From positions 1 to 64,000 of the forward strand of contig JAUZRN010000006.1 in NCBI GenBank assembly GCA_030950375.1: 64,000 nt of DNA. The letters run 5' to 3'. The translations under genes were made by a program, and so were the position numbers. Positions 51,457 through 62,614 of this stretch are shown in pieces. The notes under the pieces are model-generated. The model saw nothing but the letters and a program-made list of their open reading frames with translations. It did not search any database and had not been told where the DNA came from. Positions within the stretch are counted from its first letter, which is position 1, and each line of letters opens with the position of its first letter. The stretch is from Rhodothermus sp. (GTDB taxonomy: Bacteria; Bacteroidota; Rhodothermia; Rhodothermales; Rhodothermaceae).

Positions 51457-52332
51457 ATGATCCCGCCACCCTTCACGTATGCGGCGCCCACCAGTCTGGA
51501 GGAAGCGCTTGCCCTGTTGCAACAGCATGGACCAACGGCCAAGATTCTGGCCGGCGGTCATAGCCTGCTGCCCATGATGAAGCTTCGTCTGCTGGAGCCC
51601 GAAGTGCTTATCGACCTGCGGCGTGTGCCTGGCCTCAACGATATCCGTGAAGCGAACGGGTATCTGCACATCGGGGCCATGGTCCGTGAAGTCGAACTCG
51701 AAGAGCATCCACTTATTCGGGAAAAATATCCCCTGCTTTACGAGACAACGCGCTGGATTGCCGACCCGCAGGTTCGCAACATGGGCACGGTCGGCGGCAA
51801 TCTGGCTCACGGCGATCCCGGCAACGACCATCCAGCCACCATGATGGCCTACGATGCCCAGCTCGTGGTCGTGGGCCCTCGCGGCGAGCGCGTCATTCCT
51901 GCCCGGGAGTTCTTCCTGGATTTTTATACGACCGCGCTGGAGTCCGACGAGATTCTCACTGCTATCCGGATCCCGACCCCCCCACCCCGCAGTGGTGGGG
52001 CTTATGAAAAACTGGAGCGCAAGGTCGGTGACTATGCGACGGCTGCGGTGGCCGTACAGCTTTCACTGGCCGAGGATGGCACGCTCAGCTACGTGGGCAT
52101 TGGTCTGACAAACGTGGCCCACGTGCCGCTGTTCGCTGCCCGCTCCTGCGCCCATTTGCAGGGCCAGCGTCCTACGCCGGAACGCATTGACGAAGCCGCG
52201 CAGATGGCTTCGGAAGACTGTAATCCCCGGTCGGATCTGCGCGGTTCGGCCGAATACAAGCGTGCGATGGTGCGTGAGCTGACCCGTCGCGCTTTTCGTC
52301 GAGCCCTTGAGCGAGCCCAAGGAGGTCAATAA
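51457..52332 (+). CDS. coxM: CO dehydrogenase medium (FAD) subunit
   Basis: The 291-residue protein is the FAD subunit that passes electrons from the iron-sulfur subunit to the quinone pool. The FAD motifs AGGHSLLPMMKLRL (about 31-44) and TVGGNLAHGDPGND (about 110-123) are canonical. The start at 51457 has a strong GGGGGGAAAG site. It is the first gene of a coxM-S-L-G-D-E-F-mocA run; coxS follows after 3 bases. The order M-S-L is that of form I CO dehydrogenases. Confidence 0.95.
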   Translation: MIPPPFTYAAPTSLEEALALLQQHGPTAKILAGGHSLLPMMKLRLLEPEVLIDLRRVPGLNDIREANGYLHIGAMVREVELEEHPLIREKYPLLYETTRWIADPQVRNMGTVGGNLAHGDPGNDHPATMMAYDAQLVVVGPRGERVIPAREFFLDFYTTALESDEILTAIRIPTPPPRSGGAYEKLERKVGDYATAAVAVQLSLAEDGTLSYVGIGLTNVAHVPLFAARSCAHLQGQRPTPERIDEAAQMASEDCNPRSDLRGSAEYKRAMVRELTRRAFRRALERAQGGQ

Positions 52333-52335
52333 GCC

Positions 52336-52839
52336 ATGGCTGCACAAACGGTTACGGTAACCCTCACCGTCAACGGAAAGACGCATACGGCTGAGGTTGA
52401 GCCCCGGCTTTTGCTCGTGCACTTTCTGCGGGAACACCTGAACTTAACCGGTACGCATATCGGCTGCGACACAACCCACTGTGGTGCCTGCACAGTGCTG
52501 ATGAACGGCCGGGCCATCAAGTCCTGTACGGTGCTCACCGTGCAAGCTGACGGGGCCACGATCCAAACAATCGAGGGCATGGCTGAAAATGGCCAGATGC
52601 ACCCGCTGCAGGAAGGCTTTCACGTGGAGCACGGATTGCAGTGTGGCTATTGCACGCCCGGCATGATTATGCGTGCCGCCGAACTGCTGGCCAAGAACCC
52701 TGATCCCTCTGAGGAGGAAATCCGCTGGGGTATCTCGGGCAATCTGTGCCGCTGCACTGGCTACGTTAACATTGTGAAAGCCATTCAGTACGCTGCCCGC
52801 AAACTGCGCGCGCGCGAGCAGGCCGCGGCCGATTCCTGA
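52336..52839 (+). CDS. coxS: CO dehydrogenase small (2Fe-2S) subunit
   Basis: The 167-residue protein carries two [2Fe-2S] clusters. The ferredoxin-type cluster is bound by C44, C49, C52 and C64. The four-helix-bundle cluster is bound by C103 and C106 ([10 protein letters not shown]) plus C138 and C140 (NLCRCTGY). It carries electrons from the molybdenum centre to FAD. An AGGAGGT site lies before the ATG at 52336. It sits between coxM and coxL, cotranscribed with both. Confidence 0.96.
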
Positions 52840-52876: not shown

Positions 52877-55243
52877 ATGGAAGCCGAAGTCCGGACACCC
52901 CCGACGATCTGCGGCATGGGGCATCGCATGAAGCGTAAGGAAGACGCCCGCTTTCTGTTTGGCAAAGGGCGCTATGTGGACGACATCAAGCTGCCCGGCA
53001 TGCTCTACATGGACATCGTCCGCAGTCCCTTTGCCCATGCCCGGATCAAAAGCATCAACACCGAACGGGCCCTGGCAATGGACGGCGTCGTAGCCGTCAT
53101 CACAGGCAAGGATCTGGAGCAATACAACCTGCACTGGATGCCCACCCTCATGGGCGACACGCAGATGGTCCTGCCTACCGACCGCGTCCTGTACCAGGCA
53201 CAGGAGGTGGCGGCCGTCATTGCCACGGATCGCTACATTGCGGCCGATGCCGTCGAAGCCATTGAGGTCGAATACGAACCACTTGAGCCCGTGGTCGATC
53301 CATTTCGGGCTCTGGAGCCCGATGCGCCGGTCCTCCGCACGGACAAGGGTAAAACGGACAATCACATCTGGCACTGGGAGGTCGGCGACCGTGAGGCGAC
53401 CGAGCGGGCCTTCCAAGAGGCTGACGTGGTCGTCAAACAGCAGATCTATATTCCCCGTATCCACGTAGCCTCTATTGAGACGTGTGGTTGCATTGCCGAC
53501 TACGATCCGGTCGAAGGCAAACTGACCGTCTATATGACCACCCAGGCCCCCCATGTAGTGCGGACAGCTCTGGCGATGGTCGCCGGTCATGTAGGCCTGT
53601 CAGAAGAAAAGATCCGCGTCATCTCGCCGGATATCGGAGGCGGCTTCGGCGGCAAGGTGCCCATCTATCCGGGCTACGTCATCGCCATTGCGGCCTCGGT
53701 ATTGCTGGGCAAGCCGGTCAAGTGGATCGAAGATCGGTCGGAAAACCTGCAGGCCGATTCGTTCGCCCGTGACTACCACATCACGGCCGAGCTGGCGGCC
53801 ACCAAGGAGGGCAAGATTACAGCGCTTCGGATTAAAACGCTGGCGGACCACGGCTACACCGATGCAGCGGCCAACCCTTCCAAGTTTCCGGCCGGTCTGT
53901 TTTCGATCTGCACCGGCTCCTACGACATCAAACACGCGTTCGTCGAAGTCGATGCCGTCTATACGAACAAACCGCCGGGCGGCGTGGCCTATCGCTGCTC
54001 GTTCCGGGTGACCGAAGCCGTGCACGCCATTGAGCGCATGGTGGATGTGCTGGCCCAGAAACTGGGCATGGATCCGGCCGAATTGCGTTTCAAGAATTTC
54101 ATTCAGCCTGACCAATTCCCCTACAAGTCGGCACTCGGCTGGGAGTACGATAGCGGAAACTACCCGGCTGCCCTGCGCAAAGCGATGGACCTGATCGGCT
54201 ACGAGGATCTGCGTCGCGAGCAGGCCGAGCGACGGGCCCGGGGTGAACTCATGGGCATCGGTATCAGCAGTTTCACGGAAATTGTCGGCGCCGGTCCTTC
54301 GCGGCATTTCGACATTCTTGGCATCAAGATGTTCGATAGCTGCGAGCTGCGCATCCATCCCACCGGCAAGGCGATCGCACGCTTCGGCACGAAATCGCAG
54401 GGCCAGGGGCATGAAACCACCTACGCCCAGATTATCGCGGAAGAGCTGGGCATTCCGGCCGAACACGTTCAGGTCGAAGAAGGCGACACCGACACAGCCC
54501 CCTATGGGCTGGGCACTTATGCCAGTCGATCCACCCCGACGGCCGGTGCCGCGGCCGCCATGGCCGCTCGTAAGGTGCGCGAGAAAGCCCGAAAAATTGC
54601 TGCCTACCTGCTCGAAGTCAGCGAAGAGGACCTGGAATGGGAACCGGGCGTCTTCCGGGTCAAAGGCGCACCGGACAAATCCGTCACCATTCAGGACATC
54701 GCCCTGGCGGCCTATACCAATCATCCGCCGGGCATGGAGGCTGGTCTGGAAGCCGTCCATTACTACGACCCACCCAACCTCACCTTCCCCTTTGGCTCGT
54801 ATATCTGCGTGGTGGACATTGACAAGGGCACCGGTCAGGTAAAAATTCGACGTTTCGTGGCGGTGGACGACTGCGGCCATGTCATTAATCCGATGATCGT
54901 AGAGGGCCAGATCCACGGCGGGTTGACCATGGGTTTTGCGCCTGCCATGATGGAAGAACTGGTTTACGACGAAGAAGGCAACATCCTGACCGGTTCGTTC
55001 ATGGACTACCTGTTGCCGACAGCCGTCGAGACACCGCGCTGGGAGACGGCCCGCACCGTCACGCCCTCGCCCCACCATCCACTGGGCGCCAAAGGCGTGG
55101 GCGAGTCGGCCACGGTGGGCGCACCAGCGGCTATCGTCAACGCCGTTGTCGATGCGCTCTCGCCTTATGGCGTGACGCACATCGACATTCCAATCACGCC
55201 GTACAAGGTCTGGAAAATCCTACACGAGAAGGGCGTAGTCTGA
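52877..55243 (+). CDS. coxL: Aerobic CO dehydrogenase large subunit, form I
   Basis: CoxL binds the Mo-Cu centre and molybdopterin cytosine dinucleotide and oxidises CO. The 788-residue protein has the form I signature AYRCSFR at 371-377, with C374 as the copper ligand, instead of the AYRGAGR of form II enzymes. Other elements are the N-terminal GKGRYVDDI, the PDIGGGFGGK loop (251-260) and the C-terminal catalytic Glu in GAKGVGESATVG. It is slightly shorter than the Afipia (Oligotropha) protein. The signature supports true CO oxidation rather than another xanthine-oxidase-family reaction. Confidence 0.95.
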   Translation: MEAEVRTPPTICGMGHRMKRKEDARFLFGKGRYVDDIKLPGMLYMDIVRSPFAHARIKSINTERALAMDGVVAVITGKDLEQYNLHWMPTLMGDTQMVLPTDRVLYQAQEVAAVIATDRYIAADAVEAIEVEYEPLEPVVDPFRALEPDAPVLRTDKGKTDNHIWHWEVGDREATERAFQEADVVVKQQIYIPRIHVASIETCGCIADYDPVEGKLTVYMTTQAPHVVRTALAMVAGHVGLSEEKIRVISPDIGGGFGGKVPIYPGYVIAIAASVLLGKPVKWIEDRSENLQADSFARDYHITAELAATKEGKITALRIKTLADHGYTDAAANPSKFPAGLFSICTGSYDIKHAFVEVDAVYTNKPPGGVAYRCSFRVTEAVHAIERMVDVLAQKLGMDPAELRFKNFIQPDQFPYKSALGWEYDSGNYPAALRKAMDLIGYEDLRREQAERRARGELMGIGISSFTEIVGAGPSRHFDILGIKMFDSCELRIHPTGKAIARFGTKSQGQGHETTYAQIIAEELGIPAEHVQVEEGDTDTAPYGLGTYASRSTPTAGAAAAMAARKVREKARKIAAYLLEVSEEDLEWEPGVFRVKGAPDKSVTIQDIALAAYTNHPPGMEAGLEAVHYYDPPNLTFPFGSYICVVDIDKGTGQVKIRRFVAVDDCGHVINPMIVEGQIHGGLTMGFAPAMMEELVYDEEGNILTGSFMDYLLPTAVETPRWETARTVTPSPHHPLGAKGVGESATVGAPAAIVNAVVDALSPYGVTHIDIPITPYKVWKILHEKGVV

Positions 55244-55311: not shown

Positions 55312-55386
55312 TTGCTCCTGTGTGCATGATCTTGAATGCATGTAATCGGGCTTTGGGAAACATCCCTGTATAAACCCGGAAAGACC

Positions 55387-55947
55387 ATGAAAACCACTAT
55401 TGAAAAAACCTTTACGGTACGTCAACCTCTGGAGAAAGTCTGGAGCTATCTGAGTGATCCGGCGAAAGTGGTGCCCTGCGTGCCCGGTGCACAGCTCACT
55501 GAACAGATCGATGCGCACCACTATCGGGGAACAGTCAGCATGAAAGTAGGACCGGTCAGCGCCAGTTATAAGGGTGAAATAACCATTAAAACGCTCGATC
55601 ACGAAACCCACACGATCGAGCTGATGGGCCGTGGACTGGATGCCCGGGGTAAGGGCAGCGCCTCGATGACCATGTGGGGACAGGCCCGAGCCGTGGATGC
55701 CAACACTACCGAAATTATCAACCGGATTGAAATCTCCGTAACCGGCATGCTGGCCCAATTCGGCTCGCGCCTGATCGAAGACGTATCCAGTCGCCTTTTC
55801 GACCAGTTCACCGAGTGCTTCGAATCGCTACTGGGCGGCGAAGCACCCGAAGACGCGGGCCAGGCGCTCAGCGCCGGTTCACTGATCAAAGAGGGAATTA
55901 AGTCGGTTGCCGGACGGTTTTTCGGGAAGAAGGAGGGAAATGAGTAA
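55387..55947 (+). CDS. coxG: CoxG, SRPBCC membrane-recruitment protein
   Basis: The 186-residue protein is a START/SRPBCC-like domain (KTTIEKTFTVRQPLEKVWSY; VSMKVGPVSASYKGEI) of the CoxG family, with a C-terminal helical tail. CoxG recruits CO dehydrogenase to the membrane and is thought to couple it to quinone reduction. The start at 55387 has GGAAAG. It lies after a 143-base gap containing a hairpin, and its stop overlaps coxD by 8 bases. Confidence 0.9.
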   Translation: MKTTIEKTFTVRQPLEKVWSYLSDPAKVVPCVPGAQLTEQIDAHHYRGTVSMKVGPVSASYKGEITIKTLDHETHTIELMGRGLDARGKGSASMTMWGQARAVDANTTEIINRIEISVTGMLAQFGSRLIEDVSSRLFDQFTECFESLLGGEAPEDAGQALSAGSLIKEGIKSVAGRFFGKKEGNE

Positions 55948-56833
55948 GGAGGTCGCCGCTCGTATCGCAGGGTTGATCGAAGGACTGGAGCAGCAGGGGT
56001 ACGTGGCGGATGAGGCACTGGCCACGGTGCTGTACCTGATGCTGACGCTACGTCGGCCGTTACTCGTTGAAGGCGACGCTGGCGTGGGCAAGACCGAGAT
56101 AGCCTATGCACTGGCCGGCTATCTTGACACTGAGCTGATCCGTTTGCAGTGCTATGAAGGGCTCGACGTCCATTCAGCCGTCTATGAGTGGAACTATCCC
56201 CGCCAGCTACTGGCTATCAAGCTCTGGGAGCAGCACGAGGTGCCGCTGGAAGAACGCGAGCGGCAACTGTTCAGTGAAACCTACCTGCTGGCGCGGCCGC
56301 TGCTGAAGGCCATTCAAGCCAGAGAACAGGCCCCTGTGTTGCTCATCGACGAGATTGATCGGGCCGATGAGGAGTTCGAGGCCTTTCTACTGGAGTTGCT
56401 ATCGGCCTTCCAGATCTCAATCCCGGAGCTGGGCACCATTCGTGCCCGCCATATCCCCTACGTTGTGCTGACATCCAATCGCACGCGCGAGCTGAGCGAC
56501 GCGCTTAAACGTCGTTGCCTGTACTACTGGCTCGACTATCCGGATGAAGCGAAAGAGTTGCGGATCATTCGTAAGCAGCTCCCGAATATCGAAGCCGATC
56601 TGGCCTACCAGGTGGTGCGCTTTGTGCAGACGCTACGGCAACAGCGCCTGCACAAAATCCCTGGTATTGCCGAGACGCTCGACTGGGCTCGTGCCCTGGT
56701 AGCGTTGGGGGTGCGTCGGATCGATGAGGCTGTGGTGGCTCGCACAGCCGGCTGCCTGCTCAAGTCGGCCGACGACCTGGAGCACCTGCGCAACCATCAA
56801 CTTGAAGACCTGCTGGCCTGCCTGACAACTTGA
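55940..56833 (+). CDS. coxD: MoxR-type AAA+ ATPase CoxD
   Basis: The 297-residue protein is a MoxR-family ATPase. It has Walker A in LVEGDAGVGKTEIAYAL and Walker B in LLIDEIDRADEEFEAF. The sensor region is LTSNRTRELSDALKRRCLYY. CoxD acts with CoxE in assembling the active-site Mo-Cu sulfur cluster (family knowledge). The start has AGGAGGG and overlaps coxG by 8 bases. CoxE follows after 3 bases. Confidence 0.93.
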   Translation: MSKEVAARIAGLIEGLEQQGYVADEALATVLYLMLTLRRPLLVEGDAGVGKTEIAYALAGYLDTELIRLQCYEGLDVHSAVYEWNYPRQLLAIKLWEQHEVPLEERERQLFSETYLLARPLLKAIQAREQAPVLLIDEIDRADEEFEAFLLELLSAFQISIPELGTIRARHIPYVVLTSNRTRELSDALKRRCLYYWLDYPDEAKELRIIRKQLPNIEADLAYQVVRFVQTLRQQRLHKIPGIAETLDWARALVALGVRRIDEAVVARTAGCLLKSADDLEHLRNHQLEDLLACLTT

Positions 56834-56836
56834 GCC

Positions 56837-57994
56837 ATGTCGGCTTCCCGCACCATATGGCCGACTTTTACAGCGACCGACTTTACGGGTGCGGTGCGTG
56901 GCTTCTGCGCCTTCCTGAGGGAACATGGTTTCACGGTGGGTATTGCGGAAACCCTCGACACCCTGCAGGTGGGCCGTAGTGAGCTGCTGCAGACACCCGA
57001 TCGCTTTCGGACGGCGTTGCGGGCGCTGCTGTGCAGCTCCCCGGACCAGTGCCGGCGCTTTGATGGGTTGTTCGACGCCTACTGGCTCGGTCGCACGGCA
57101 GACGGACAGGGGTCCCCGGCACCAACGCGACGGCGTACCCGTCCGCCTGCGACGGGACGAACCATGCCGCTACTTATGACCCTCCAACGCGCCACCACTC
57201 CCCCTGAAGAAGAAGGCAAAACGACCACCGGCGCCAGCACAGCCCATCGGCTACGTCAGGTAGATTTCGCTCGCGTGCCGGCCGCCGATCAGGAGCAGCT
57301 CGAAGCGCTGGCCGAGCAGCTTTTTCGCCAGCTACGCGTGCGTCTTTCGCGTCGCGAAAAAGCGGCCTGGCGCGGCCGCCGTATTGATCTGCGCCGCACA
57401 ATCCGGCGCAACCTTGATCGCGGCGGCGAGCTGGTTACCCTCCGCTACCGTCAGCGTCGTCCGGATCGGCCTCGCCTGGTAGCGCTGCTCGATGTAAGCG
57501 GCTCTATGGACCGCTACAGCTACTTTCTGTTGCGTTTCCTGCATGCACTGCAGCAGCACTTCCAACGCGTCGACTCGTTCGTGTTCAGCACCGAGCTGAC
57601 CTGTATCACTGAGCTGCTACGTCAGCCGACGCTCCCCGAAAGTCTACGCCGTCTGGCTGAAACGCCCACTCCCTGGTCCAGCGGAACTCGCATCGGCGCC
57701 TGCCTTGAGGCTTTTGTAGCCCATTATGGCCGCCGCCTGCTTTCACGCCGCACGCTGGTGCTCATTTTAAGTGATGGCCTCGACACAGGCGACCCAGCCC
57801 TGCTGGCCCATGCCCTGCAGGCCATTCGTACCCGCTGTCGTCGGATTATCTGGCTCAACCCGCTCATGGGCATGACGGGCTACGCACCCCTTGCCCGTGG
57901 TATGCAGGCGGCTTTGCCCTACCTCGATGTCTTTCATCCCGCCCATAACCTCGACAGCCTGCTCCGCCTGGAGCCATACCTGCGCCATGTTTGA
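56837..57994 (+). CDS. coxE: VWA-containing CoxE
   Basis: The 385-residue protein has a helical N-terminus and a C-terminal VWA domain with an intact MIDAS DVSGSM (D219, S221, S223). MoxR plus VWA pairs form chaperone-like metallo-machines, and CoxE is required with CoxD for the CO dehydrogenase copper-sulfur centre. There is an alanine/threonine-rich linker near residues 85-125. The last 8 bases overlap the next gene. Confidence 0.92.
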   Translation: MSASRTIWPTFTATDFTGAVRGFCAFLREHGFTVGIAETLDTLQVGRSELLQTPDRFRTALRALLCSSPDQCRRFDGLFDAYWLGRTADGQGSPAPTRRRTRPPATGRTMPLLMTLQRATTPPEEEGKTTTGASTAHRLRQVDFARVPAADQEQLEALAEQLFRQLRVRLSRREKAAWRGRRIDLRRTIRRNLDRGGELVTLRYRQRRPDRPRLVALLDVSGSMDRYSYFLLRFLHALQQHFQRVDSFVFSTELTCITELLRQPTLPESLRRLAETPTPWSSGTRIGACLEAFVAHYGRRLLSRRTLVLILSDGLDTGDPALLAHALQAIRTRCRRIIWLNPLMGMTGYAPLARGMQAALPYLDVFHPAHNLDSLLRLEPYLRHV

Positions 57995-59024
57995 CCCGAT
58001 TCTGGAGCGCGCCCGCGAACAGACAGCACAGGGCCGCCCCTGTGCGCTGGCCATCGTCGTTCGCTATGAAGCGCCGATCTCTGGAAAGCCCGGCGATAAA
58101 GCGCTCATTCTGCCCGACGGCACGCTGCATGGCTGGATAGGTGGAGGCTGCACACGCCCGGTCGTCGTTCGCGAGGCCCTACGCGCCATGCGCGACGGTC
58201 GTCCCCGCCTGGTGCGCATCACGCCTGAAGCAGCTGAAGTCGAAGTGGAAGGCCTTATCGCCTATTCGATGACCTGCTACAGCGGCGGCACACTCGATGT
58301 GTATATCGAACCGCTACTACCCCCCCCTCAGCTCCTGGTGCTGGGACATTCAGCTGTAGCCCAGGCCACCGTACGCCTGGGTCACGTCCTTCGCTATCGT
58401 GTGCTGGTGGCCGATCCTGAAGCATCGGCCGAGCGGTTTCCGGAAGCCGACCTGCTGCATCCTTCCTTTGCGCTGGAAACGTTGCCCCTGACACCCTGGA
58501 CATTCGCCGTAGTGGCCACCCAGGGCGAAGGCGACGAGGAAGCGCTGACATCAGTACTCGCCCATCCTTTCCCGTACGTAGCGCTGGTAGCCAGCCGTCG
58601 CAAGGCCGCCCGTCTGCGCGCGCTACTGGCTGAACGCGGCGTACCCGCCGACCGGCTGGCAGCCGTGCGCGCGCCAGCCGGGTTGAACCTCGGTGCTCGT
58701 ACACCAGAAGAAATCGCCCTGAGTATCCTGGCCGAAATCGTACAGGAGCGCCACCAGCATCCCATCCCAGTGCTTCCCGATAAACCTACCATTCCCGAAG
58801 GTTTTCTCGAAATTACGCTACACATCGAAGGCATGAGCTGTGCGCACTGCCTTCACACAGTGGAAAAAACTCTGCAGGCCCTGCCTGGCGTAATCGTACA
58901 GGCAGTGGAGCTGGGCCGGGCCGAAGTGGCTTATGATCCTGATCAGATCACGCCATCCACACTGGCCGAAGCACTTGAAGCCCGAGGTTATCATTTGCGC
59001 ACTACTCCCCTCACCGCGCCATGA
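57987..59024 (+). CDS. XdhC/CoxF-like protein fused to HMA domain
   Basis: The 345-residue protein begins at ATG 57987, overlapping coxE. Residues 1-~100 are the XdhC/CoxI head (GWIGGGCTRPVVVREALRAM). Residues about 110-265 are the Rossmann-like XdhC C-terminal domain (LLVLGHSAVAQATVR). From about 274 to 340 there is a complete heavy-metal-associated domain with the metal motif GMSCAHC (C285, C288). XdhC-type factors insert or sulfurate the Mo cofactor, and HMA domains carry Cu(I). The fusion suggests a maturase that also delivers copper to CoxL (inferred). Its stop overlaps mocA. Confidence 0.92.
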   Translation: MFDPILERAREQTAQGRPCALAIVVRYEAPISGKPGDKALILPDGTLHGWIGGGCTRPVVVREALRAMRDGRPRLVRITPEAAEVEVEGLIAYSMTCYSGGTLDVYIEPLLPPPQLLVLGHSAVAQATVRLGHVLRYRVLVADPEASAERFPEADLLHPSFALETLPLTPWTFAVVATQGEGDEEALTSVLAHPFPYVALVASRRKAARLRALLAERGVPADRLAAVRAPAGLNLGARTPEEIALSILAEIVQERHQHPIPVLPDKPTIPEGFLEITLHIEGMSCAHCLHTVEKTLQALPGVIVQAVELGRAEVAYDPDQITPSTLAEALEARGYHLRTTPLTAP

Positions 59025-59635
59025 AAGCAACTGGTCGTGTGGCCGCCATCGTGCTGGCAGCCGGTGCCTCCCGACGCATGGGTGGCCGTAACAAGCTGCT
59101 GTTGCCCTTTGGGGACCACCCCCTTGTGCGCCACGTGGTTACTACCATCCTGCACAGCCAGGCCGATCCGGTGCTCGTCGTGCTGGGCCACGAGGCTGAA
59201 GCCATCCGTGCCGCACTGGCCGACCTGCCCGTCGGCTTCACCTACAACCCGCGCCACGCCGAAGGTATGACCACCTCAATCCAAGCCGGCGTCGCAGCAA
59301 CCCCACCAGACGTGCTCGGCTACATGATCTGCCTGTCAGACCTGCCGCTGATTGAAACGGCGGAGTACAACCGGCTTCTCGAAGCATTCCGCGAAGCCCT
59401 TACCCGTGACCCGGCCTGCATCGTGGTGCCCGAATTTCAGGGCCAACGCGGTAATCCTGTCCTGTTTGCAGCACACTATCGGGCAGCTATCCTGGCCGAA
59501 GAACGACTGACCGGTTGTCGGGGCCTGGTGCGCCGCCACCCCGAACACGTCGTACGCGTAGCCATGCCCACCGACCACATTCTGCAGGATATCGACACAC
59601 CCGAGGCGTTCGCAGCCCTCACGAAGACACGTTAA
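59021..59635 (+). CDS. mocA: MocA-like molybdenum cofactor cytidylyltransferase
   Basis: The 204-residue protein is a MobA-type nucleotidyltransferase with IVLAAGASRRMGGRNKLLLP at the N-terminus and a catalytic metal site in YMICLSDLPLIE. CO dehydrogenase uses molybdopterin cytosine dinucleotide, so a CTP-using MocA is expected here. The gene starts in an ATGA overlap with the HMA fusion gene and ends the operon. Its last 17 bases overlap the convergent xdhC. The cytidine preference is inferred from context. Confidence 0.88.
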   Translation: MKATGRVAAIVLAAGASRRMGGRNKLLLPFGDHPLVRHVVTTILHSQADPVLVVLGHEAEAIRAALADLPVGFTYNPRHAEGMTTSIQAGVAATPPDVLGYMICLSDLPLIETAEYNRLLEAFREALTRDPACIVVPEFQGQRGNPVLFAAHYRAAILAEERLTGCRGLVRRHPEHVVRVAMPTDHILQDIDTPEAFAALTKTR

Positions 59636-60806
59636 GTGGACGCGGAAGCGGCGGACGCTCCCCATGAATGGGCGTATTACGTTCCCGAAGCGGACGCGCC
59701 GAACGACCATGCAATACGGCCTGGATCTCGGCCAGCGCGGCCAGTGCAATCTCTTCGGCCGTTTCCGTGCCGATGTCCAGCCCGACAGGTCCATAGATGC
59801 GAGCTCGCTCGGCCTCCAACCGCTCACCATGCGTGCGGGCCAGTTCGCTCAACATACGCTCGGTACGTTCCCTGGGCCCCAGCATCCCGATATACGGGAT
59901 GTCACTTTCAAAAAGCAACGTCGCCAGAATCTGGCGGTCACGTAGATACGTATGGTTCATGACCAGAGCGGCTGTGCGGCGATCAACGGTGACATGCTGC
60001 GTGAGCTGCTCCGGATGCATCAGGAAGCGACAGGCATCCGCTTCAGCAAAGCGCCGTGCCAGCTCTTCCGGCGATCGCCGACCGATGACCTCCACCTCCC
60101 AGCCCAATCCCCGCGCAAAGTGTACCACCGGAAACACGTCGTGTCCCTCACCAAAGACCAGCAGACGCACAGGCGGCTGGACGACCTCCAGCAGCACCTC
60201 CATCTGCATCGTTCCTTCGGAGAAGCGCCGGATCGCCCAACCCCGTTCTTCCCGCCCCGCAAGCAACTGGTCCAGCATCTGACGGGCCGCCTCGTGAATC
60301 TGCGTCCCCAAAAGACCATCTGGCAAATCGCTCTCCACAGCCTGGTCCTCACGCACCAGCAGATGGCGACCGAGCCACTCCATCCCCTCGCCGGTTGTTT
60401 CGATAACGGTAGCCAGCACCGCCTGCTGTCGCGCTTTCAGGCAACGATCCAGTAAAGTCAGCGGGCTATGGCGTCCTGCCACAGGCACCCGTTCCAATAG
60501 CACGTGGGCTACCCCGTCACACCCGGTCCCAAAGCCGTAGATCAGATCATCATCAGCCAGATCAAAGGGGAGCAGGCGGGCCGGTACCCCTTCTTCCAGC
60601 AACTGAAGCGCCTGACGGGTCACTTCACCTTCCAGACAACCACCGCTGATGGTACCCCGGTTCGTACCATCAGCCTCCACAATCATACGCGCTCCCGGGC
60701 GCCGATAAGTGGAACCCCCGATGCGGACGACTGTAGCGATCACATGAAGCGTTTTCTCCTGGACCAGCCGTCTGGCTTCCTGCAACAGCGTTCGCAGTTC
60801 TCGCAT
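59619..60806 (-). CDS. XdhC/CoxI family maturation factor
   Basis: The 395-residue protein has the XdhC_CoxI N-terminal domain (ATVVRIGGSTYRRPGARMIV; GTISGGCLEGEVTRQALQLL) and a C-terminal Rossmann-like domain (LLVFGEGHDVFPVVHFARG). It has no HMA extension. It probably handles the sulfuration or insertion of the Mo cofactor for CoxL, in parallel with the fused protein. It is transcribed towards the cox operon. The ATG at 60806 has no strong ribosome site. Confidence 0.9.
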   Translation of the reverse strand: MRELRTLLQEARRLVQEKTLHVIATVVRIGGSTYRRPGARMIVEADGTNRGTISGGCLEGEVTRQALQLLEEGVPARLLPFDLADDDLIYGFGTGCDGVAHVLLERVPVAGRHSPLTLLDRCLKARQQAVLATVIETTGEGMEWLGRHLLVREDQAVESDLPDGLLGTQIHEAARQMLDQLLAGREERGWAIRRFSEGTMQMEVLLEVVQPPVRLLVFGEGHDVFPVVHFARGLGWEVEVIGRRSPEELARRFAEADACRFLMHPEQLTQHVTVDRRTAALVMNHTYLRDRQILATLLFESDIPYIGMLGPRERTERMLSELARTHGERLEAERARIYGPVGLDIGTETAEEIALAALAEIQAVLHGRSARPLRERNTPIHGERPPLPRPLNVSS

Positions 60807-61327: not shown

Positions 61328-61696
61328 CAGGCCTCCCGGGTTGACTCACATATGAAAAGTACAAAAAAAATTCATTCCATAAAACCCTCACTTCCTGCTC
61401 GAACGACAGACGCCCTGCTAACCGGGCTTTGGGGCAAAGTCGATACCCGGCGTCTCCATCCCTGTCAGATCAAAATTCAGTATGTCCGACGCTTTTCCTC
61501 CCTCGTCAGATCTGCTTCAAGGAAGAAAAGTATACCGATGAGCTGATGGTTTACTGCCTCGACCCCTCCTTTCTGGGGTTCGATGTCACCCAGACACACC
61601 GTCAGAATTTGCGCCAGAGGACTGGTATACGAACCTGATAATGGAAACCGAACGTGCGATCCGACCTTTGTCAGGATAAACTCAATCTGTCAAGCC
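61328..61696. other. Region upstream of oxyR
   Basis: These 369 bases must contain the oxyR promoter and probably its own operator. Only weak promoter-like elements were seen, and no gene. Confidence 0.4.
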
Positions 61697-62614
61697 ATGA
61701 CGCTGACTCAACTGGCTTACGCGGTGGCCGTCGATACATACCGACATTTTGGCAAGGCGGCCGAACACTGCCACGTATCGCAACCAACGCTGAGTATGCA
61801 GCTGCAAAAATTGGAAGAAGAGCTGGGCGTAGAGCTTTTTGATCGGAGTCGTAAACCCATTCTACCCACCCCTATCGGAGAACGTATTCTGGCGCAGGCA
61901 CGCGTAATTCTCCGCGAATGCGAGCGACTCTATGAGCTGCTGAACGAAGACTTGGAAACCATCCGGGGTGAGCTAAAGCTGGGGGTAATTCCCACGCTGT
62001 CACCGTACCTTCTCCCGCTAATAACCCGGCCATTACAGCAGCGGTATCCAGAACTCATCGTTCATGTTGAAGAGCTGACCACAGAACAGATCATCGATGC
62101 GCTGGCCACAGATCGGCTGGACGCCGGTCTAATTGCTACGAAGGAAAGCCGTCCTGGAATGCGTCAGCGCGTTCTGTTCCGAGAGCCTTTCGTGGTCTAT
62201 CTAAGTGTCGGACATCCCCTGCTAACCAGACAGCGCATTGAGCCTGCTCAGCTTCGCCTTGAAGAACTATGGCTGCTCAAGGAAGGGCACTGCCTTCGGG
62301 ATCAGGTACTCCAGATATGCAGTCGTCGCGAAGAGGCAAGTCCTGCGCCACAACTACGCTTTGAAAGCGGCAACCTGGAAATGCTTCGCTTGCTGGTCGA
62401 CCAGGTGGGAGGTGTTACGCTTCTGCCTTTACTGGCAACCCATTACCTACCTCCGGAGGCCCGGCAACGCATCCGACATTTTCGCGATCCGGCCCCTCAC
62501 CGTACGATTTATTTGATCTATGCCCGGGCCCATCTGAAGCGCATGCTGCTCAACGCCTTTGTGAACGTGCTCCAGGAGAGTGTCCATGCCATTGCAGATA
62601 GCTGCGCCGTCTAA
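61697..62614 (+). CDS. oxyR: Hydrogen peroxide sensor regulator OxyR
   Basis: The 305-residue LysR-type regulator begins at ATG 61697 with MTLTQLAYAVAVDTYRHFGK and a typical N-terminal winged helix (HCHVSQPTLSMQLQKLEEEL). The peroxide-sensing cysteines are C199 and C208 in KEGHCLRDQVLQIC. They match E. coli OxyR in number and spacing and support true OxyR function. OxyR activates catalase and peroxiredoxin genes on oxidation. The target genes are not in the window. A gap of 82 bases separates it from the redB-like gene. Confidence 0.93.
   Translation: MTLTQLAYAVAVDTYRHFGKAAEHCHVSQPTLSMQLQKLEEELGVELFDRSRKPILPTPIGERILAQARVILRECERLYELLNEDLETIRGELKLGVIPTLSPYLLPLITRPLQQRYPELIVHVEELTTEQIIDALATDRLDAGLIATKESRPGMRQRVLFREPFVVYLSVGHPLLTRQRIEPAQLRLEELWLLKEGHCLRDQVLQICSRREEASPAPQLRFESGNLEMLRLLVDQVGGVTLLPLLATHYLPPEARQRIRHFRDPAPHRTIYLIYARAHLKRMLLNAFVNVLQESVHAIADSCAV

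Follow-up and report, generated by a model that had tools for sequence, protein, structure and literature searches.

What does a copper-type domain do at the C-terminal end of a maturation factor of a molybdenum enzyme? This question is raised by a gene at positions 57987-59024 of the window, that is, of the whole stretch of 64,000 nucleotides of DNA analysed here, from the heat-loving Rhodothermus sp. The original prediction had placed in it an XdhC-like maturase joined to an intact HMA domain, inside a form I cox operon, and had proposed that the fusion delivers copper to CoxL at the same step as sulfuration. Our reading is that this protein, CoxF-HMA, would serve as the copper-inserting factor of the form I (Mo-Cu) CO dehydrogenase (CODH), with a copper-loading domain of its own as an exchangeable tail (probability about 0.7).

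The cox operon and its CoxF-HMA protein

The gene order on the plus strand is coxM-coxS-coxL-coxG-coxD-coxE-coxF-mocA, and a second XdhC-type gene lies convergently on the minus strand:

51457-52332, plus strand: coxM, FAD subunit
52336-52839, plus strand: coxS, 2Fe-2S subunit
52877-55243, plus strand: coxL, form I (AYRCSFR), presumed copper acceptor
55336-55947, plus strand: coxG (PF06240)
55907-56833, plus strand: coxD, AAA ATPase
56837-57994, plus strand: coxE, VWA protein (VWA_CoxE, PF05762)
57987-59024, plus strand: coxF-HMA, XdhC-family CoxF with a C-terminal HMA domain, 345 aa (translation, Pfam, structure model, Foldseek)
59021-59635, plus strand: MocA-like nucleotidyltransferase, overlapping the coxF stop
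59619-60806, minus strand: second XdhC/CoxI-type protein without HMA, the paralogue control within the locus

The CoxL of the window is form I: it scores 1299 bits with TIGR02416, whose cut-off is 991, and carries the motif GGVAYRCSFR; together with the cox neighbours this confirms the predicted location in a form I operon. The listed coxD reading frame begins at a TTG within coxG, and its likely start is the ATG at 55940. The coxE stop and the coxF ATG overlap in ATGTTTGA, and the coxF stop and the next ATG, that of mocA, overlap in ATGA, a pattern seen in translationally coupled genes. A LysR-type (OxyR-like) regulator is encoded close to the operon, at 61583-62614 on the plus strand.

Within CoxF-HMA the following parts were distinguished:

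58026-58220, plus strand: XdhC_CoxI domain, residues 14-78, including the near-invariant C55 (Pfam E=6.5e-18)
58332-58739, plus strand: XdhC_C Rossmann domain, residues 116-251 (Pfam E=3.2e-31)
58755-58805, plus strand: linker between core and HMA, 17 residues (257-273), of lower conservation and lower model confidence
58815-58994, plus strand: HMA domain, residues 277-336 (Pfam E=1e-11)
58833-58850, plus strand: MSCAHC metal loop, with C285 at 58839-58841 and C288 at 58848-58850

All three domains exceed the curated Pfam cut-offs, the HMA domain (PF00403) with 45.5 bits against 24.8. The AlphaFold2 model has a mean pLDDT of 93.2, the linker being less certain, and its HMA part adopts the canonical beta-alpha-beta-beta-alpha-beta fold. 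In Foldseek comparisons the core matched the XdhC-like structures 2we8 and 3on5, and the tail matched copper chaperones and ATPase domains (2l3m, 3dxs, 2qif). By its score above the curated cut-off, its MxCxxC loop and its expected fold, the tail is an HMA domain; both halves of the predicted fusion and the positions of the two HMA cysteines were thus borne out. Judging from the CopZ-like matches, the tail would be expected to bind Cu(I).

The protein is a CoxF by its XdhC_CoxI and XdhC_C domains and by the adjoining form I coxL, coxD and coxE. It does not fall among the chaperones of copper-free Mo hydroxylases (XdhC/CoxI): the enzyme of its operon is the form I CODH, and the paralogue at 59619-60806 suits that chaperone role better. 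Two cysteines of the core, C55 and C97, are common to CoxF and XdhC. C97 was considered as a copper-specific site and rejected, as this cysteine is also present in paralogues. Viral contigs yielded no relative.

Distribution and selection of the HMA tail within Rhodothermales

How closely does the HMA tail follow form I CoxL within the order? We surveyed 114 genomes, scoring form I CoxL against its cut-off, which was exceeded in nine; CoxF-HMA is present in all nine. It adjoins coxL in the window and in G003, G008, G050, G321, G315, G175 and G305, and lies on a different contig (L157) from coxL in G320. The tail of L021 is the same as that of G305, which assigns L021 to this order. Some 40 further XdhC proteins from Rhodothermales carry no tail. 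Neither CoxF nor HMA was seen in the form II loci (AYRGAGR) of these genomes and of further genomes of the order, and any XdhC protein encoded next to such a locus is bare. One genome of the same genus, G151, has neither form I CoxL nor CoxF-HMA and retains the other XdhC. In the order, genes resembling coxD and coxE are retained at most form II loci; because CoxF is missing there, CoxD and CoxE are not copper-specific in themselves. Loci with this arrangement are L128 (G000:C10:101000-119500), L129 and L131.

If domain fusions are possible by chance and the HMA form is limited to one order, then we can ask: Is this a neutral fusion, carried along without function? The nine genomes that bear it span several families, and the MSCxHC loop is intact (8 of 8 HMA-type CoxF in alignment A2) even though HMA identity to the domain of the window falls to 36%. 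Within the genus the median dN/dS is lowest in the core (0.09), followed by the HMA part (0.13) and then the linker (0.26), with purifying selection acting on the HMA part. Since the same fusion occurs in eight other form I genomes and dN/dS of its HMA part is low, chance or artefact as the source of the fusion was rejected; with the full association with form I added, a fusion devoid of function is hardly credible. The HMA of CoxF usually resembles the HMA of CoxF from elsewhere in the order more closely than it does the free HMA domains encoded in its own genome, L021/L127 being the exception.

YHS tails in other phyla and the history of the tail

HMA as a general trait of form I loci was rejected, the common form being YHS, another small domain found in copper ATPases. 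Both HMA and YHS are able to bind other metals. In most phyla outside Proteobacteria, form I CoxF carries a C-terminal YHS domain in the same place as HMA. In an adenylyl cyclase from mycobacteria, the YHS domain shows a copper-specific response (PMC4626032). The YHS tails of CoxF were first noticed in plasmid and genome collections; they occur on form I CoxF not only in many bacterial phyla but also in Halobacteria (L017:7929-8939, L067, L074, L093, L230-L249 and others).

A wider survey was seeded by form I CoxL in three phyla, the adjoining CoxF was read and the tails were classed by motif; owing to this seeding the CoxF sample was not chosen by tail. YHS was present on CoxF in 18 of 19 form I loci of Actinomycetota and in all 27 of Chloroflexota. 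Among 13 form I CoxF of Pseudomonadota, ten were bare, two had Cys at the very end and one had YHS. A Pfam scan of 124 form I CoxF gave HMA in 8 and YHS in 60, the latter count being one in which TRASH-type models match too and some degenerate YHS tails miss E=0.001. In the XdhC/CoxI-type paralogues the scan gave neither domain (0/82). The association between tail and protein type has a Fisher p of ~3e-20, which is indicative only, since the rows are related. The original prediction had named, as evidence against the copper link, an equal frequency of HMA fusions at loci for form II enzymes or xanthine dehydrogenase; with none among these 82 proteins and none in form II loci of the same genomes, that link was not refuted.

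Thirteen contigs with a tailed CoxF lacked form I CoxL. For ten of the thirteen, the whole genome pointed to form I: five had an above-cut-off form I CoxL, and five more had high-scoring CoxL fragments that agree with form I, most of them truncated where a contig ends. A motif scan for separate small HMA or YHS genes adjoining tail-less CoxF found none.

The same distribution bears on another possibility, namely that the tail removes copper, scavenging excess Cu against mis-metallation of the sulfurated Mo, or aids dimerisation, with no delivery at all. HMA and YHS are indeed also found in detoxification proteins. Such a role, however, would need confinement to form I cox, and the sulfurated Mo sites served by the tail-less paralogues would need equal protection; we regard it as improbable.

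Some variants of the tail deserve mention. CoxF of L060, L061, L090, L255 and L256 have no HMA or YHS, and their ends are rich in Cys (SCCSH...HSCCGH, MKRPCC, GGGCCGHGSG, RRFCCM, NSFC); these are possibly minimal metal-binding tails. The CoxF at L227:6804-7955 (minus strand) has two tandem YHS domains, and CCGGG motifs stand in the linker directly before YHS at L019:4965-6104 and L024:7980-9011. In L216, the same locus as L067 (Nocardioides mangrovi), there are two coxL genes of form I type, AYACSFR and AYRCSFR, on one strand and a few kilobases apart.

The relationship between the two kinds of tail was evaluated on a tree built from the XdhC core without the tail; this was a quick tree with SH-aLRT support only, and its deep branching is not relied on. 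The core of the window protein groups with CoxF, in a branch of 107 rows (SH-aLRT 99), and not with the XdhC/CoxI paralogues. All eight HMA rows fall together in a single clade (SH-aLRT 96), nested in a clade (SH-aLRT 98) with five YHS proteins from Bacteroidota, Verrucomicrobiota and Acidobacteriota. Because the HMA clade lies inside YHS-bearing CoxF, a single exchange of YHS for HMA in Rhodothermales is the probable history. HMA would then be a local substitute for the far commoner YHS tail, and two unrelated copper-type domains occupy one C-terminal position on CoxF. XdhC proteins that resemble CoxF but are bare (L063, L073, L075, L080, L084, L087, L091, L092, L095) make up a sister group outside the form I clade; the genomes of these nine loci gave no CoxL match at E <= 1e-150.

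Copper insertion and comparison with known systems

In Oligotropha carboxidovorans, sulfuration needs CoxD and precedes copper insertion (PMC4240915, PMC3471820), and the CODH of coxE and coxF mutants is partly sulfurated with active-site copper absent (PMC4240915). The proposal of copper delivery at the sulfuration step therefore divides: its copper link is supported by the distribution of the tails, and its common step is not supported in view of these mutants. One could still suppose that CoxF acts in the sulfuration of CoxL as a classical XdhC, copper being added at the same step; protection or insertion of sulfurated Moco is a function of XdhC proteins (PMC2997495), and CoxF has C55 and C97 in common with them. 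The sulfurated Mo species kept by the coxE and coxF mutants and the need for CoxD (PMC4240915, PMC3471820) make this very improbable.

That CoxF is a copper donor is an already published proposal and not new; it was made for O. carboxidovorans, whose CoxF has a phytase motif and the copper motif MCPSHGTM (PMC4240915). The coxF mutant of this bacterium was also without CoxE, and thus the role of CoxF itself was not isolated (PMC4240915). In the window CoxF both RHGxRx (histidine acid phytase) and MCxSHGTM are absent, and its sequence does not fit an OM5-type mechanism with phytase. Among the 124 form I CoxF (alignment A2) the phytase motif occurs in at most three and an MCxSHGTM-type motif in one, and the core Cys of MCPSHGTM is also found in paralogues of copper-free enzymes. 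Wherever tails exist, they are a better candidate than the published motifs for the copper-holding part. In the literature covered, to which subscription journals largely do not belong, we found no paper on XdhC or CoxF joined with HMA or YHS; the HMA fusion and the wider YHS fusions are apparently undescribed there.

How, then, would CoxF-HMA work? From the sequence and the published mutants we infer which metal is bound, that it is transferred, that the proteins dock and in what order the steps follow in Rhodothermus. The HMA tail, on its short linker, would load Cu(I) through C285 and C288 from the copper pool of the cell. The XdhC core would dock on apo-CoxL, whose Mo site has already undergone CoxD-dependent sulfuration; the sulfide on Mo and the cysteine in the AYRCSFR motif of CoxL would then receive the Cu(I). 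The tail would be an exchangeable module, YHS in most lineages outside Proteobacteria, HMA in Rhodothermales and none in most Proteobacteria. It is not obligatory for copper insertion, because most Proteobacteria lack it, including O. carboxidovorans, where CoxF is essential; in these bacteria its job may fall to CoxE, to the core itself or to a chaperone encoded separately.

This dispensability over evolutionary time also agrees with a copper sensor, in which Cu on HMA or YHS would switch CoxF on, limiting CODH maturation to times of copper supply, and the copper itself would come from elsewhere, and restriction to a copper-needing enzyme fits a carrier and a sensor alike. HMA domains of the CopZ/Atx1 type, however, are transfer domains. 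Copper, moreover, enters at the genetic step of CoxF (PMC4240915), and we consider a sensor unlikely.

Returning to copper insertion, we incline slightly towards a wider view, that CoxF is a general copper-inserting metallochaperone for Mo-Cu CODH. Its ancestor would have been an XdhC Moco chaperone that acquired an exchangeable copper-loading tail, of which YHS is the form in most phyla and HMA that in Rhodothermales, with Cys-rich stubs perhaps in a few; Proteobacteria, the group in which the mechanism has been studied, are mostly without one. The published model of copper insertion rests on mutants in which CoxE and CoxF are both missing and on short motifs found here not to be conserved. 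The CoxF tail, with two unrelated folds across many phyla, offers a concrete two-cysteine target and a swappable donor domain for testing this step, and such tails could aid the making of active CODH in other hosts.

CoxF-HMA can be compared with several known systems. The two XdhC domains and the conserved cysteines of the core are features that it shares with the Moco chaperones XdhC, CoxI and PaoD, whose clients are, to our knowledge, copper-free enzymes; unlike CoxF-HMA, the XdhC/CoxI-type paralogues bear no metal tail. Its HMA shares the fold and the MxCxxC loop with CopZ/Atx1-type proteins and with the N-terminal HMA of copper ATPases, but in contrast to these it is fused to a molybdoenzyme maturation factor. 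CCS, the copper chaperone of superoxide dismutase, combines an Atx1-like domain with a target-recognising domain and brings Cu(I) to one enzyme; here the likeness is a functional analogy only, as the recognition part is not homologous and membership is not claimed. CoxF of Oligotropha (Afipia) carboxidovorans OM5, the proposed copper donor to the Mo-S site, has an orthologous XdhC core (~41% identity) and the same operon partners (coxMSL/D/E/G), but it lacks both HMA and YHS, while the window protein has HMA. The YHS-tailed CoxF of form I cox loci, for example in Thermomicrobium roseum, Natronorubrum, Arthrobacter and Nocardioides, have the same core, operon type and tail position; they differ from the window protein in the tail itself, a YHS fold with D/C...C..C ligands in place of the CxxC of HMA.
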